From the IMG/VR virus record IMGVR_UViG_3300013126_000007, positions 1 to 35,448 of that record: a stretch of 35,448 bases of DNA, one strand, 5' to 3'. The stretch's first letter is position 1. The number at the start of each line of letters is the position of its first letter. The position numbers were made by a program, and so were the translations under genes. Positions 23,644 to 29,443 of the stretch are shown here, one piece after another. The notes beneath the pieces are model-generated. The model had not been told where the DNA came from. It was given only the letters and a program-made list of their open reading frames with translations, and did not search any database. This DNA is from a virus.

Positions 23644-23871
23644 GTTCCGACCTCGAGCGAACGGGCGTCAGGTAGGAACGCGGTAGGAACGCACTTGGTT
23701 CCGGCCTTTGTTCCTACTGTTCCTACTGTTCCTACCTCTATAGATAGAGGATAAGGATATATATATATGTTGTGCGGTGGGTGCACAGACGGAACGTTGG
23801 CACAACAGCCAAAAAATAGGCTGTTCCTACCATGTTCCAACCTCGATCCGTTCCTACCTTCAGGTTGGAAC
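23644..23871. other. Candidate replication origin: iterons around an AT-rich core
   Basis: Eleven copies of a nine-base unit (consensus GTTCCTACC) occur in 228 bases. Forward copies start at 23644, 23698, 23710, 23719, 23728, 23823, 23834 and 23850. Reverse copies start at 23671, 23682 and 23863. Three are exact head-to-tail tandems (23710-23736). Between the two clusters lie an inverted repeat, CCTCTAT-AG-ATAGAGG (23735-23750), and an AT-rich tract with five TA steps (about 23751-23770), which is exceptional in this GC-rich genome and would melt easily. A perfect seven-base hairpin (AACAGCC/GGCTGTT, 23804-23825) follows. Location immediately after the primase-helicase gene fits a theta-type origin bound by a phage initiator. 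Confidence 0.75.
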
Positions 23872-26043
23872 ATCGTCGGCCTCCTTCTGGTAGCGCCACT
23901 CCAGGGCGGCGCCGACCCGCACCCGTCTCTTCCGCCACCCGAGCCGCGCCAGCACGGCCCCCACTCTCATCTGCTCCCCGCGCCCCCAGCGTCCGCACTC
24001 CAATCCCAGGGCGATCCCCAGGACGTCGCCGGAGGTGACCGACGCCTTCCCGGTGAGGTAGTCGGCGACCTTCGCCTCCCAGGGATCCCCCTGCCGGCGC
24101 TCCTCGACCACCTCGGCATGACCTTCCCTGACCTCCGCCGGAAGCACGAGGCCCCCGCCCCCCCGCCAGCTCGCCACGGCCTCGGCCAGGAGCTGGTCGC
24201 GGTCGCGGCGCAGGGCCTCCAGGTCTACGGCCCCGACGCCCACGGGCCAGAAGCGCCGGTTGCCGGTGTCGTCGCGGAGGTAGTCGCCACGGTTGGTGGT
24301 GCCGCCGAAAACGCACCGGCGAGGGAGCTCGACCAGGGCCCGGCCGTAGGGGGGGCGGAACCTGTCGACGGTGCGCGAGAGGAACGCCTTGACCAGCTCC
24401 ACCTCCGCGCGCCCCAGGGCCGACAGCTCGGGCAGCTCGACGATCCAGGCTCGCGAGATGGCCAGCGCCGCGTCCTTCGAGCTGAGGTCGTGAACGTCGT
24501 CGGTGAAGTACTCGCCGCCGATCACGCCCAGCAGGCTACTCTTGCCGGCGCCCTGCGCCCCCTCCAACACCAGCGCCGCGTCGGCCTTGATGCCGGGCTG
24601 GAGCGCGCGGGCCACAGCGGAGCGGAGCCAGCAGGCTCCCACCGCGCGAGCGTAGAGGGAATCGGTCGCACCGGCGTAGGTGACCAACCATCGATGAAGG
24701 CGGGGCACCCCGTCCCAGCGGAGACCGTCGAGGAAAACCGCGAGCGGATTGGCCCGCTGCTCCCGTGCCAGCAAAGCCACGGCCTGGCAGACGGACTCGG
24801 GGCGGACGCGCAGCCCCCACTTGCGCTGAAGCCACACGGCCGCCTCGGTGTCGTCGGTGTCTGCCCAGGGGCGCCAGGATTCTCCCTGGAGCTCGATCTG
24901 CTGGCGCGCCTCGTTGTAGCGGATGCGCCCCGCCCATCGCGGGTCGTGGGTCAGGATCGCAACCACGTTGGCAAGGTCGCTGGTGATCTCGCCTTTGCGC
25001 CGGATCAGCACCCCCTGCCAGTCCTCCGCGGGGGGCTCTTCGCCGCCGCCGTCGTCAGAAGAAGCACCTCCGGAGGGAGGCGCAGGGGGTGCCCCGCCGC
25101 CCGCGCCGCCCGCAGAGGGGTACCGCAGTTCCGGCACCTCTTTTGGGGCCCGGCGCCCGGCTTCGATCTGGTAGCGCACGGTCTGCCTGGTTTTGTCGAG
25201 GTTGTCCCACCCGCAGCGCTGGGCCTCGCCAACGAGCTCCCGCTCGATCTCGTCGGCGGAGATCGCCCCGGTGTGGATCAGCCCCCCAAGGTGATAGGCC
25301 TTCGCCCTGATCGTGTTGTGCCGGGTGCCCTGAGGGACCCGGCGCAGGTCGTCCAGCGCGCCCTCGAGGGCCTTGCGGACGTAGCGCGCCGCTCCGTCCT
25401 CGGAGGGGGCTGCCGCGCGCTTGCGACGCGGAGGCGCCGGGGGGGGCGCTTCCAGGGCGCGCTGCTCCTCGATCACTGCGTCCGCGTCAAGCCACCGGCC
25501 CCCCTGGAGAGGGACGAGCCGGTAGTCCCCGGCGCACCCCGGGCGTACCGCCGGAAGGAACCACAGCCGGGAGGCGTCCCGGCAGGCCTCGTCGATGGCG
25601 TGGCCGACCTCCAGGCACCGGGTCGCCGCCCAGCGCCAGATCAGCCCGTACTCTGCGGCCGAGACGGCGCGCGAGAGAGGCACCACGACCCGGAAGCGGG
25701 GCTGGTCGGGGCGGTGGCTCCAGGTCGTGTAGATCCACCCTGCGTGGTGCCCCCACAGCGCCGCAGCCTCCTCGACGGAAGTGGCAGGCTGGTCGGGCTG
25801 GGCCTCGTAGTCGAGGGCGAGGGCGCAGACGCTCTCCACGCCAGCCTTCTCACGCCGGTCCTGGCGGAAGGTGGCGGGGCTCCAGCCTCGGCTCGCGCTC
25901 TTGCTCTCCAGCTCGGGGGGGCGGGTCCACTCGGGCAGGTCGAGCACGTCGTCCCACGACCCCACGAAGCGCTGCCCGCGGGGGTTGGTGAGCGACTCCC
26001 AGAGGGTGATCGCCGCCGGAGGGATCTGCGTCGCCGCGCTCAC
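23860..26043 (-). CDS. VapE-family primase-helicase
   Basis: The protein has 727 residues from a GTG at 26043 (GTGA overlap). The N-terminal third resembles a primase-polymerase module (ALDYEAQPDQP; RFRVVVPLSRAVSAAEYG; DEACRDASRLWFLPAVRPG). A Pro/Gly/Ser-rich linker lies at about 315-360. The C-terminal part is a virulence-associated-E-type P-loop ATPase: Walker A GAQGAGKS at 495-502, a Walker B-like AWIVELPE at about 532-539, and the family motif FGGTTNRGDYLRDDTGNRRFWPV at about 579-601. It should prime and unwind phage DNA. The final codons overlap the last iteron, so origin and initiator genes are physically joined, as in lambda O. Confidence 0.85.
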   Translation of the reverse strand: MSAATQIPPAAITLWESLTNPRGQRFVGSWDDVLDLPEWTRPPELESKSASRGWSPATFRQDRREKAGVESVCALALDYEAQPDQPATSVEEAAALWGHHAGWIYTTWSHRPDQPRFRVVVPLSRAVSAAEYGLIWRWAATRCLEVGHAIDEACRDASRLWFLPAVRPGCAGDYRLVPLQGGRWLDADAVIEEQRALEAPPPAPPRRKRAAAPSEDGAARYVRKALEGALDDLRRVPQGTRHNTIRAKAYHLGGLIHTGAISADEIERELVGEAQRCGWDNLDKTRQTVRYQIEAGRRAPKEVPELRYPSAGGAGGGAPPAPPSGGASSDDGGGEEPPAEDWQGVLIRRKGEITSDLANVVAILTHDPRWAGRIRYNEARQQIELQGESWRPWADTDDTEAAVWLQRKWGLRVRPESVCQAVALLAREQRANPLAVFLDGLRWDGVPRLHRWLVTYAGATDSLYARAVGACWLRSAVARALQPGIKADAALVLEGAQGAGKSSLLGVIGGEYFTDDVHDLSSKDAALAISRAWIVELPELSALGRAEVELVKAFLSRTVDRFRPPYGRALVELPRRCVFGGTTNRGDYLRDDTGNRRFWPVGVGAVDLEALRRDRDQLLAEAVASWRGGGGLVLPAEVREGHAEVVEERRQGDPWEAKVADYLTGKASVTSGDVLGIALGLECGRWGRGEQMRVGAVLARLGWRKRRVRVGAALEWRYQKEADDVPT

Positions 26044-26447
26044 GGGGCCGCCTCCTCGCGCTCGTCGCGCGCCACGGCGCGAGCGGCGGCCATGCGGGGG
26101 TGCCCCGAAGAGCACCACGCCACCTCGCAGCCGCTCTCGACGGAGGCAAGGTGGATCCGGTCCACCAGCGCCCCAAATCCCTCGCCGCCTGGGTAGGGGC
26201 GATGGTCCGGGCGGGGCACGGCGGCCTTGAGGTTGGTGTAGACGACGGCGCCGATGTGGCCGTTCTTCTGAAGCCGCCCCAAGGCCGTCAGGAGGGCGCG
26301 CGCCACGGTCTGGTTAGGCGTCGGCTCCGCGGGCACGTAGCGCGCCACCTCCTTGCACCGGCCCTCCTCGTCGTAGGCGTGGAAGACCACCCGGGCTTGC
26401 CTGTCGCCCTGGTCCTGGCAGATCGCCACGTAGACCTCAGCGATCAT
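26040..26447 (-). CDS. Small protein with RNase H-like features
   Basis: The protein has 135 residues; the ATG at 26447 has GGAGGAG upstream. It opens with two long strands (EVYVAICQDQGDRQARVVFHAY). A helix containing PTPNQTVARALLTALGRL and a strand GAVVYTN follow, then near the end SSGHPRMAAARAVARDE. The order strand-strand, T-N-x-x-A-helix, strand, and the late GH-helix resemble the RNase HI fold, but the usual catalytic Asp/Glu set is not evident (Asn in YTN where Asp is common). It may be an inactive relative or a coincidental pattern. Its place directly before the primase-helicase suits a replication accessory factor. Confidence 0.5.
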   Translation of the reverse strand: MIAEVYVAICQDQGDRQARVVFHAYDEEGRCKEVARYVPAEPTPNQTVARALLTALGRLQKNGHIGAVVYTNLKAAVPRPDHRPYPGGEGFGALVDRIHLASVESGCEVAWCSSGHPRMAAARAVARDEREEAAP

Positions 26448-27383: not shown

Positions 27384-27598
27384 CGCAGCCCCCCGGGCCC
27401 CGGGGTCACACCACGCCGTCGGAGGAGGCGATCGATGGTCGCGGCAGCGGTTGCGCAAGCGACGGCCTCTGCGCCCTCGCGTGCGCCCTCCAGGGCGAGG
27501 ATCTGGAGGGCGCCTCGGAGCGCGGTAGCGTCCGTGCCGGAGAAGGGCGCCGAGGCTGCCACCGCTGCCGCGGTGCGCTGGTCGAGGGGGTCGCTCAC
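27380..27598 (-). CDS. Small early helical protein, unknown
   Basis: The protein has 72 residues from a GTG at 27598 overlapping the stop of the Cro-like gene. It is Ala-rich and helical (ATALRGALQILALEGAREGAEAVACATAAATIDRLLRR) and ends GVTPGPGGLR. It is co-translated with the Cro-like regulator. No motif or membrane segment that would give a function. Confidence 0.55.
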   Translation of the reverse strand: MSDPLDQRTAAAVAASAPFSGTDATALRGALQILALEGAREGAEAVACATAAATIDRLLRRRGVTPGPGGLR

Positions 27599-27843
27599 GC
27601 TGCCCTCTGCTCGACGCGCTCCACTGCCCGGAGGGCGGTGCCGCTCAGGCGAGGCCAGGCGTCAGGAGCGATCCCGAGCTCTCGCTCAAAGGCCACCTTT
27701 GTGGCGGGGCCGGGAGCCTGCTTGCCGCTCAGGATCCGGCTGAGGTTCCCCTGGTTGATCCCCAGCCGCGCCGCCAGAGCTACCTGAGAAAGGCCGTGCT
27801 TCCTCATGGCCTTGGCGATCATCAGCAGCGGACTCTTTTTCAT
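27595..27843 (-). CDS. Cro-like XRE-family regulator
   Basis: The protein has 82 residues from an ATG at 27843. Residues about 18-45 form a clear helix-turn-helix (GLSQVALAARLGINQGNLSRILSGK), of the kind found in Cro/C1-type repressors. The rest is a short helical tail without a cleavage or dimerisation domain. Divergent to the larger repressor, first in the leftward early operon, with its promoter covered by an operator. This is the standard place for a Cro that turns down repressor synthesis and commits to lysis. Confidence 0.8.
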   Translation of the reverse strand: MKKSPLLMIAKAMRKHGLSQVALAARLGINQGNLSRILSGKQAPGPATKVAFERELGIAPDAWPRLSGTALRAVERVEQRAA

Positions 27844-27854
27844 CGTGGTGAGCC

Positions 27855-27883
27855 ACTATGCGCAGGCCATGCGCAAAAGTCAA
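27855..27883 (-). promoter_or_regulatory. Leftward early promoter (Cro-like operon)
   Basis: On the minus strand TTGACT (27883-27878) and CATAGT (27860-27855) are separated by exactly 17 bases. The ATG of the Cro-like gene begins 11 bases after the -10, so the leader would be about five bases or absent. Operator O1 (27859-27875) fills the spacer and touches the -10, so binding there would block RNA polymerase. Confidence 0.7.
27859..27875. promoter_or_regulatory. Operator O1 (paired TGCGCA)
   Basis: TGCGCA at 27859-27864 and again at 27870-27875, start to start 11 bases. Each half is itself palindromic, so the whole is symmetric. It lies between the -35 and -10 of the leftward promoter. Confidence 0.7.
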
Positions 27884-27884
27884 G

Positions 27885-27901
27885 TGCGCACATTATGCCC
27901 A
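27885..27901. promoter_or_regulatory. Operator O2 (paired TGCGCA, one mismatch)
   Basis: TGCGCA at 27885-27890 and TGCCCA at 27896-27901, the same 11-base spacing as O1. It lies just upstream of the repressor gene, over a possible -10 (CATTAT, 27891-27896), so it is the likely site controlling the repressor's own promoter. No good -35 was found for that promoter. Confidence 0.6.
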
Positions 27902-27932
27902 TGGTTTTCACCGCGCAGTTCAGCCTTGCACA

Positions 27933-28574
27933 ATGATAGAAGAAGGCCGTGAGCGGCTCACCAGCCGCCAGAACGAACATGTCCGCCGGGTAGGCCGAGA
28001 GGTCCTTCGGGAACGCTTCGACCAAAACGGCACTCGCATGGCCGCATCCATCGGGATCACCCAACCCAACCTCTCCAGGTTCCTCAACGGGAAGCAAGGA
28101 ACCACTCGGGACGCAGCGCTGAAGATCCTGGCCCTCGGCGGCGTCGAGCCGGCCCACGTTGGGCTCGACTCGCCGTCAAGCGAGGTGCTGTTCCGCATCC
28201 CGTCGGTATCCCACCACCCCGAGTGGCAGAACGCCGAGGCCGAGGCCAGGCGCCTTTACAAGCGCATCCCAGAAGACGCATGGGCCTCAGCCCGGCGGTT
28301 TTCGTACCATGGCACCGTCCACCACATCACCCCAGAGTTTGTCATGCACCTTGCGCTTGCCGCTTACGACATAAGCCCATCGGAGCCCATGGTTGCCGCG
28401 GGTTTACTTGGGTTCCCGGGGTGTCGTCAGGCACACGGCAAAGTCATAAAACGGGGTCCCAAGGCAAAGCGGTCCGCTGGAGGTGCCGGCCACTTTGCTT
28501 TCTGGATGGCGCTGAAACTCGGTTTTTTCAAACGAATAATCAGAGGTTGGCGAGCATCCAGGAACCAGTTTTAG
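27933..28574 (+). CDS. Phage repressor (CI-like, XRE-type HTH)
   Basis: The protein has 213 residues from an ATG at 27933. A longer in-frame start at 27858 would lie inside operator O1 and the opposite promoter, so it is rejected. Residues about 12-62 hold the HTH (GTRMAASIGITQPNLSRFLNGKQGTTRD). The C-terminal part has no Ala-Gly or Ser/Lys pair of the LexA-like autoprotease type, so induction by RecA-driven self-cleavage is not expected. About the last 55 residues (after AAGLLG) are basic and Gly-rich and overlap, in antisense, the next minus-strand gene. It is predicted to maintain lysogeny by binding the TGCGCA operators. Confidence 0.7.
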   Translation: MIEEGRERLTSRQNEHVRRVGREVLRERFDQNGTRMAASIGITQPNLSRFLNGKQGTTRDAALKILALGGVEPAHVGLDSPSSEVLFRIPSVSHHPEWQNAEAEARRLYKRIPEDAWASARRFSYHGTVHHITPEFVMHLALAAYDISPSEPMVAAGLLGFPGCRQAHGKVIKRGPKAKRSAGGAGHFAFWMALKLGFFKRIIRGWRASRNQF

Positions 28575-28961
28575 ACGAGACTGGCAGGATATTGTGGAAT
28601 ATCCCCAGAACTTGTCCGAGTTGGAGAGATAGGTAGCTCCCGACCTGAGACCGAGGCACGTTTCTCCGAAAGAAGCGCATACCTCCGCCCCGGTGCTATT
28701 GACCGGGACGCGCCGGTATGTGCCTTTGAGCGACCAGTATTCCACAGACTTCAGTCGCCCATCGACCTTCTCGCGCTCCAGCTCCAGCGCTGCCACCCTT
28801 GCATCAAGGAGAGAGGCGGCGCTGGCGGCAGCGGCCGACTGCCACTGCACGAACCCCAGGCCCCGCTGCTGTTCCGCTCGGTCCGCCTTGGAAGATAGGT
28901 GGACGGCCCACAGGAGGCCAAGCATGACCCCCCAGGTTACGATGTGATGCCATGCCTTCAT
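28404..28961 (-). CDS. Membrane-anchored coiled-coil/Cys-containing protein, possible lysogeny (moron) gene
   Basis: The protein has 185 residues from an ATG at 28961 without a good ribosome-binding site. An N-terminal hydrophobic anchor or signal lies at about residues 5-22 (HHIVTWGVMLGLLWAVHL). A coiled coil follows at about 28-72, then a non-helical domain with five cysteines (CASFGETCLG, ISCQSRLKLVPGC, GPLCLG, FAVC) that could form disulphides outside the cytoplasm. Base composition is clearly less GC-rich than its neighbours. Flanked by operators O3/O4 and antisense to the repressor 3' end. It may be an accessory gene expressed from the prophage, for example for exclusion of other phages; the function is unknown. 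Confidence 0.55.
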   Translation of the reverse strand: MKAWHHIVTWGVMLGLLWAVHLSSKADRAEQQRGLGFVQWQSAAAASAASLLDARVAALELEREKVDGRLKSVEYWSLKGTYRRVPVNSTGAEVCASFGETCLGLRSGATYLSNSDKFWGYSTISCQSRLKLVPGCSPTSDYSFEKTEFQRHPESKVAGTSSGPLCLGTPFYDFAVCLTTPREPK

Positions 28962-28981
28962 GAGGCGAGGTTACCGACGTT

Positions 28982-28998
28982 CGCGCATAGGTCGCGCA
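28982..28998. promoter_or_regulatory. Operator O3 (paired CGCGCA)
   Basis: CGCGCA at 28982-28987 and 28993-28998, again 11 bases apart and each one base away from TGCGCA. It lies just upstream of the minus-strand membrane protein and so mirrors O1 relative to the Cro-like gene. Confidence 0.55.
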
Positions 28999-29007
28999 AA
29001 AAAGAGG

Positions 29008-29035
29008 TTGACGTTCCCCGATCTATGCGTATCTT
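29008..29035 (+). promoter_or_regulatory. Rightward early promoter
   Basis: TTGACG (29008-29013) and TATCTT (29030-29035), spacing 16. The expected start point, about seven bases on, coincides with the ATG at 29042, so the message would be leaderless. Operator O4 overlaps the -10. Confidence 0.6.
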
Positions 29036-29042
29036 ATGCGCA
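29026..29042. promoter_or_regulatory. Operator O4 (TGCGTA / TGCGCA pair)
   Basis: TGCGTA at 29026-29031 and TGCGCA at 29037-29042, with the 11-base spacing of the other sites. It covers the -10 and start point of the rightward promoter. Its right end (TTATGCGCATGG) closely resembles the right end of O2. Confidence 0.65.
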
Positions 29043-29443
29043 TGGCCAACACGGACAGCCCCGCTCTCCCCGACCTCCTCCGCTTCTCCCGCCCCTCCGA
29101 CGACCTGGAGGCGCAGGCTTCCCTTGCCGCCGACCTGGAGGAGACGCGCCGCGCCGCCTCCCTGCTGGGCGAGGCCGACGCCTTCGTCCGCGCCGCCTGC
29201 CTCCTTGGCGCCGCCGACCGCGCTCTTACCCGCGGTGAGACCCCGTGGGCGCTTCTCGACGCGGCAGAGCGCGAGGTGACCGACCTCCGCCTGGAGCACG
29301 GCTGCGAAGACTGGCCGTCCGCCGACTGGTCGCAGGCGACGGTGCAGGACGTGGCGCTGCTGCACGACACCTGCGTCGAGCTCCGGCGCCAGGCCCGCGC
29401 CCTCCGTGACGCGCGCCTGCCCAGCCTGCGTCGCGCCGGCTGA
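29042..29443 (+). CDS. First protein of the rightward operon, unknown
   Basis: The protein has 133 residues from the ATG at 29042; an in-frame ATG at 29036 lies inside the promoter. The sequence is helical and Ala/Leu-rich (DDLEAQASLAADLEETRRAASLLGEADAFVRAACLLGAADRAL), with an aromatic acidic loop (GCEDWPSADWSQAT) and a basic C-terminus. No motif. Expression under O4 suggests that it is an immediate-early protein. Confidence 0.65.
   Translation: MANTDSPALPDLLRFSRPSDDLEAQASLAADLEETRRAASLLGEADAFVRAACLLGAADRALTRGETPWALLDAAEREVTDLRLEHGCEDWPSADWSQATVQDVALLHDTCVELRRQARALRDARLPSLRRAG

Follow-up and report, generated by a model that had tools for sequence, protein, structure and literature searches.

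In phage lambda, operators are located on both sides of the repressor gene, and one set lies at cro (PMC11077077). The same is described for phages phiKO2 and N15, again with one operator set at cro, and in phiKO2 Cro and the repressor need not use the same sites (PMC4997575). In the window, which is the whole virus record IMGVR_UViG_3300013126_000007 (35,448 bp, 71% GC), the segment from 27,599 to ~29,180 is, in our view, quite likely an immunity cassette working like a mirrored lambda immunity region, with the repressor gene between two pairs of candidate operators. This reading is based on the sites, their spacing, enrichment and overlap with promoters, on the HTH common to two proteins of the cassette, and on an exchange of the cassette in comparison with a related contig.

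The phage is previously undescribed. Its predicted genes mark it as a temperate tailed phage, possibly a podovirus, because a P22-like portal, a large terminase, a VapE primase/helicase and a tyrosine integrase are encoded. The replication genes lie on the cro side of the putative immunity region and the integrase on the opposite side, as in lambda. The features concerned are the following:

23860 to 26118, minus strand: VapE-type primase/helicase of the leftward operon (Pfam E=1.4e-71)
27595 to 27843, minus strand: 82-aa Cro-like HTH_3 protein, encoded at the head of the leftward replication operon (Pfam HTH_3 E=1.8e-9)
27855 to 27883, minus strand: predicted leftward promoter of the cro-type gene, TTGACT-N17-CATAGT (consensus match only)
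27859 to 27875: candidate operator O1, TGCGCA-ggcca-TGCGCA, half-sites at 27859/27870, score 12/12, in the leftward promoter spacer
27885 to 27901: candidate operator O2, TGCGCA-catta-TGCCCA, half-sites at 27885/27896, score 11/12, just upstream of the leftward -35, on the repressor side
27933 to 28574, plus strand: candidate prophage repressor of 213 aa with an HTH around residues 30-55 (HTH_3 E=9e-4)
28404 to 28961, minus strand: membrane protein of unknown family with one N-terminal hydrophobic segment (residues ~6-22) and several cysteines
28982 to 28998: candidate operator O3, CGCGCA-taggt-CGCGCA, half-sites at 28982/28993, score 10/12, flanked by the membrane-protein gene and the rightward promoter
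29008 to 29035, plus strand: predicted rightward promoter, TTGACG-N16-TATCTT (consensus match only)
29026 to 29042: candidate operator O4, TGCGTA-tctta-TGCGCA, half-sites at 29026/29037, score 11/12, overlapping the rightward -10 and the operon start
29042 to 29443, plus strand: leading gene of the rightward early operon (78% identity over residues 48-133 in the related contig L005)
33978 to 35141, plus strand: tyrosine integrase, at the distal end on the rightward side

The repressor and Cro-type genes are divergent with the candidate operators O1 and O2 between them, as in lambda. Against PF01381 (curated cut-off 23), the Cro-like protein is above the cut-off with 37.9 bits and the candidate repressor below it with 19.7 bits; the predicted model of the Cro-like protein weakly resembles the HTH folds of HigA, lambda and P22 C2 (E at least 4e-3). 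The two HTH segments have 13 of 20 residues identical (LAARLGINQGNLSRILSGKQ / MAASIGITQPNLSRFLNGKQ; BLASTP E=2e-6) over helix 2, the turn and the recognition helix, which is expected of a Cro/repressor pair sharing operators. A self-cleaving (S24) C-terminal domain of the repressor gave no match in Pfam or PHROGs. The predicted repressor model is all-helical at low confidence, and classification by fold was rejected because the model, built without an alignment, is too poor (pLDDT 51). Searches of IMG/VR found relatives of neither protein, and searches of GTDB genomes no relative of the repressor; Pseudomonas phage CF183a, which matches the Cro-like protein weakly, was discarded, having a different recognition helix and no TGCGCA pair. 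The repressor and membrane-protein frames overlap convergently over 171 bp (28404-28574), without a codon-position GC signal in either frame of this segment; one of the two gene ends may be wrong, or the DNA may have been acquired recently.

All eight half-sites are present where the first-pass annotation had placed them, with O1 in the Cro-like promoter, O2 on the repressor side and O4 over the rightward -10. O1 fills the -35/-10 spacer of the leftward promoter and touches two bases of its -10, while O2, centred 26 bp from the centre of O1, overlies CATTAT, a weak -10-like sequence facing the repressor. O3 lies nine bases upstream of the rightward -35 and ~20 bp upstream of the membrane-gene start codon. 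The two good intergenic sigma-70-like promoters of the region are exactly those carrying O1 and O4. Half-sites start at 0, 11, 26 and 37 in the O1/O2 cluster and at 0, 11, 44 and 55 in the O3/O4 cluster, so that they form pairs, not arrays; the operator centres of one region lie 1097-1167 bp from those of the other. A search of the two control segments for further sites with at most one mismatch per half found none.

The likeness to lambda (OL/OR around cI-rexAB) includes one operator set between the repressor and cro, with cro leading the replication operon, and a second set at the promoter from which the opposite early operon is read (O4 over it and O3, a weak site, beside it), with the integrase on that side. 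In lambda, the integrase is found on the side of the OL-controlled early operon. The 17-bp site length and an extra membrane-protein gene in the interval (rexB in lambda) are common to both. In contrast to lambda, which has three sites per region, the window has two; its operators differ in sequence and have self-complementary half-sites, the regions are ~1.1 kb apart instead of ~2.3 kb, the membrane gene and the repressor gene are on different strands, the repressor has no recognised cleavable domain, and no sequence homology is visible. The earlier view that palindromic half-sites set these operators apart from those of lambda was overstated: with 17 bp and half-site centres about one helical turn apart they have the size of lambda operators, and only TGCGCA is a true palindrome, CGCGCA, TGCCCA and TGCGTA being imperfect. 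The immB region of N15/phiKO2 (CB, Cro, OR1-3, OL1-2) has a similarly split layout, its five operators forming one cluster at cro and another past the repressor gene, and its repressor is also without self-cleavage residues. Its sites are 16-bp TA-N10-TA, unlike the 17-bp TGCGCA-N5-TGCGCA of the window (PMC4997575); its OL controls repA, and no sequence relation to the window was found.

The pattern [TC]GCG[CT]A-N5-[TC]GC[GC]CA (YGCGYA-N5-YGCSCA) occurs at exactly four places in the 35,448-bp record, namely those claimed, all in the two control segments, against a shuffled mean of 0.19 (maximum 2), which is optimistic since the pattern was composed from the sites themselves. Many extra matches of this spacing within genes, named by the first-pass annotation as evidence against its reading, are absent, the pattern having no further places in the record. 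Being palindromic, O1 is hit on the minus strand as well; the control pattern written backwards gave no match anywhere in the record. Pairs with at most one mismatch per half occupy 6 places of the whole window versus 2.3 expected; just two of the six, both in coding DNA, lie outside the control regions, so the motif is there at chance level. Inside the two control segments (~170 bp in total) four sites were observed versus 0.036 expected, and 0 of 5000 shuffles reached 3. An unbiased search through 4096 hexamers at spacings 8-16, direct and inverted, also returned TGCGCA at 11 as the best motif of the control regions (4 sites), and on 300 shuffles it gave at most 3 sites. The enrichment of the sites in the control regions is real. 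It is barely credible that it arose by chance from the abundance of TGCGCA-like words in a 71% GC genome: such words are indeed frequent (20 exact copies in the window), but the control segments have merely 55-56% GC and the shuffles never attained the observed number.

Scanning IMG/VR for two adjacent TGCGCA pairs gave 35 loci, a number that is no estimate of frequency, the loci being chosen by pattern; the reversed control pattern gave none in the twelve records examined. Many of the 35 represent regular 11-bp-pitch TGCGCA arrays with variable 5-bp spacers. They come from unrelated contigs with a GC content of 26-72% and can run to ten consecutive copies. Examples among loci L010-L044 are L012 (3644-3748), L041 (2682-2720 and 2973-3011), L017 (911-960) and L044 (1423-1484), and L021, L030 and L033 are three arrays of a single contig. 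The arrays of at least three contigs sit inside genes for replication-initiation (O-like) proteins, where they encode repeated Cys-Ala-rich peptide stretches, and some contigs have two separate arrays ~300 bp apart; both facts suggest that the arrays in O-like genes are candidate iterons. An HTH like that of the window was not found near the 35 loci by phmmer (the single pattern match is unrelated), and the loci were rejected as relatives of the window sites, which are paired and promoter-placed. The nearest lookalike of these paired sites is a phage intergenic region (L034, 3577-3680; locus GC 45%) by a terminase-like operon, with three TGCGCA-N5-TGCGCA pairs and no HTH gene recognised nearby. 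The literature searched contains no description of TGCGCA-N5 phage operators or arrays that we could find.

The recurrence of TGCGCA at 11-bp pitch in unrelated contigs, several times inside replication-initiation genes, raises the question of whether the window sites are also iterons for a replication initiator, located near promoters by accident. We consider this improbable: the window has pairs on promoters, not arrays, the window genes tested include no recognisable O-like initiator, and the VapE primase/helicase is 72% conserved in the contig L005, yet the motif is absent there.

This contig, IMGVR_UViG_3300016469_000560, is the only relative found in the collections searched, and four scans (VapE, a VapE alignment and alignments of two early genes) all converged on it; GTDB genomes contained no VapE relatives, and a terminase scan for relatives was empty. 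The early genes flanking the interval are syntenic on both sides and mostly 65-88% identical (85% for the 27380-27598 gene, 78% from residue 48 for the 29042 gene, 80% for the 29526 gene), while past the 27380-27598 gene and up to residue 48 of the 29042 gene the two phages have nothing in common. The interval of L005 is without a repressor or membrane gene; it has one unrelated YdaS/HTH_3/P22-Cro-like gene with another recognition helix, directly divergent from the rightward operon. An 80-bp bidirectional promoter (L005, 3686-3764) separates the two and contains in its rightward-promoter spacer the palindrome AGACAAGC-ccc-GCTTGTCT, whose 8-bp arms were reached in 8 of 1000 shuffles. The window shares with L005 an operator-like palindrome in a promoter spacer and near-leaderless starts, and differs from it in the palindrome, the HTH genes and the extent of the control region. 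The first-pass annotation looked to related phages for the same operator positions; these do not recur in L005, the one relative available for comparison, which has no TGCGCA-N5-TGCGCA site and a different cassette.

The GC content of the cassette is 0.53-0.65 versus 0.70-0.80 in the flanks. Judging from the aligned sequences, HTH and putative operator have changed together by cassette exchange between the window and L005. Since the motif is absent where the HTH pair is swapped and the flanks are kept, it travels with the immunity cassette, independently of the replication genes. Seen against L005, the window resembles a bidirectional control region split by an insert of the repressor and membrane genes, with operators at both ends, although the comparison gives no direction of change. 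The sites probably belong to the repressor/cro pair, because both proteins share the HTH and the motif vanishes with the cassette swap. There is only a slim chance that they are bound instead by a host regulator, e.g., a LexA-type protein. Some LexA families are known to use direct repeats spaced 11 bp apart; yet the motif is lost together with the HTH pair in a phage of otherwise similar early genes, and the TGCGCA-N5 spacing is not known from LexA boxes.

Because TGCGCA is its own complement, each site pair is a direct and an inverted repeat at once, and a dyad and a tandem look the same in sequence. Extended half-sites fit as direct repeats in 26/32 positions versus 23/32 as inverted ones (28/40 versus 27/40 with wider flanks), and the variation of O3 is identical in both halves if read as a direct repeat. 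That the repressor/Cro pair would read the operator as a head-to-tail direct repeat, one helical turn apart, instead of a dyad seems rather unlikely; if true, this operator grammar would be unlike that of lambda and would resemble the 11-bp-pitch TGCGCA arrays of unrelated phages.

The rightward start codon is at 29042 and the leftward one at 27843. At the four predicted promoters of the two phages (window, 27843 and 29042; L005, 3685 and 3764) start codons are located 6-11 nt past the -10, and for this reason the early messages from them are probably leaderless or near-leaderless. A good promoter of the repressor gene was not found, the weak candidates being CATTAT under O2 and CACAAT at the start codon.

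O3 is the weakest of the four sites and is identified mainly by its position. It is possible, if doubtful, that the operators are O1, O2 and O4 alone, O3 being a chance match and the membrane gene lying outside the circuit or being expressed from elsewhere. The O3 score (10/12) is equalled by four coding-region matches in the window, and the scan upstream of the membrane gene passed no promoter (best 6/12); against this, the control segments should hold 0.036 such sites, and O3 adjoins O4 on the same putatively regulated promoter. Control of the membrane gene through O3 is speculative: the argument for it is position, given the quality of the best promoter candidate. Of the joint control first proposed, a single site design shared by the cro-type promoter, the repressor side and the rightward promoter is supported; for control of the membrane gene the support is positional, no promoter-like sequence having been found near O3.

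In the proposed mirrored lambda circuit, the candidate repressor and the Cro-like protein would recognise one 17-bp operator, TGCGCA-N5-TGCGCA; their binding to the sites, and repression by it, we infer. O1/O2 would correspond to an OR-like region, where occupancy of O1 may block the leftward promoter that serves cro and the replication genes, while O2 may tune this promoter and the repressor’s own transcription. O3/O4, located past the repressor and membrane-protein genes, would represent the OL-like region, and occupancy of O4 would block the rightward operon, with the integrase on that side. In the lysogen, the repressor on O1/O2 and O4 (and perhaps O3) would silence both early operons, and Cro would reset the system. 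Cooperativity or looping over ~1.1 kb is speculative.

The type of arrangement is already well known, and the operator sequence code is new. The analysis gives a concrete candidate operator code and an immunity-cassette boundary for an uncultured phage group, and the comparison of the window with L005 represents a clean natural swap, in which HTH and predicted operator change while the flanking early genes stay. These data suggest that phages without visible sequence relation to lambda use operators placed on either side of the repressor gene.
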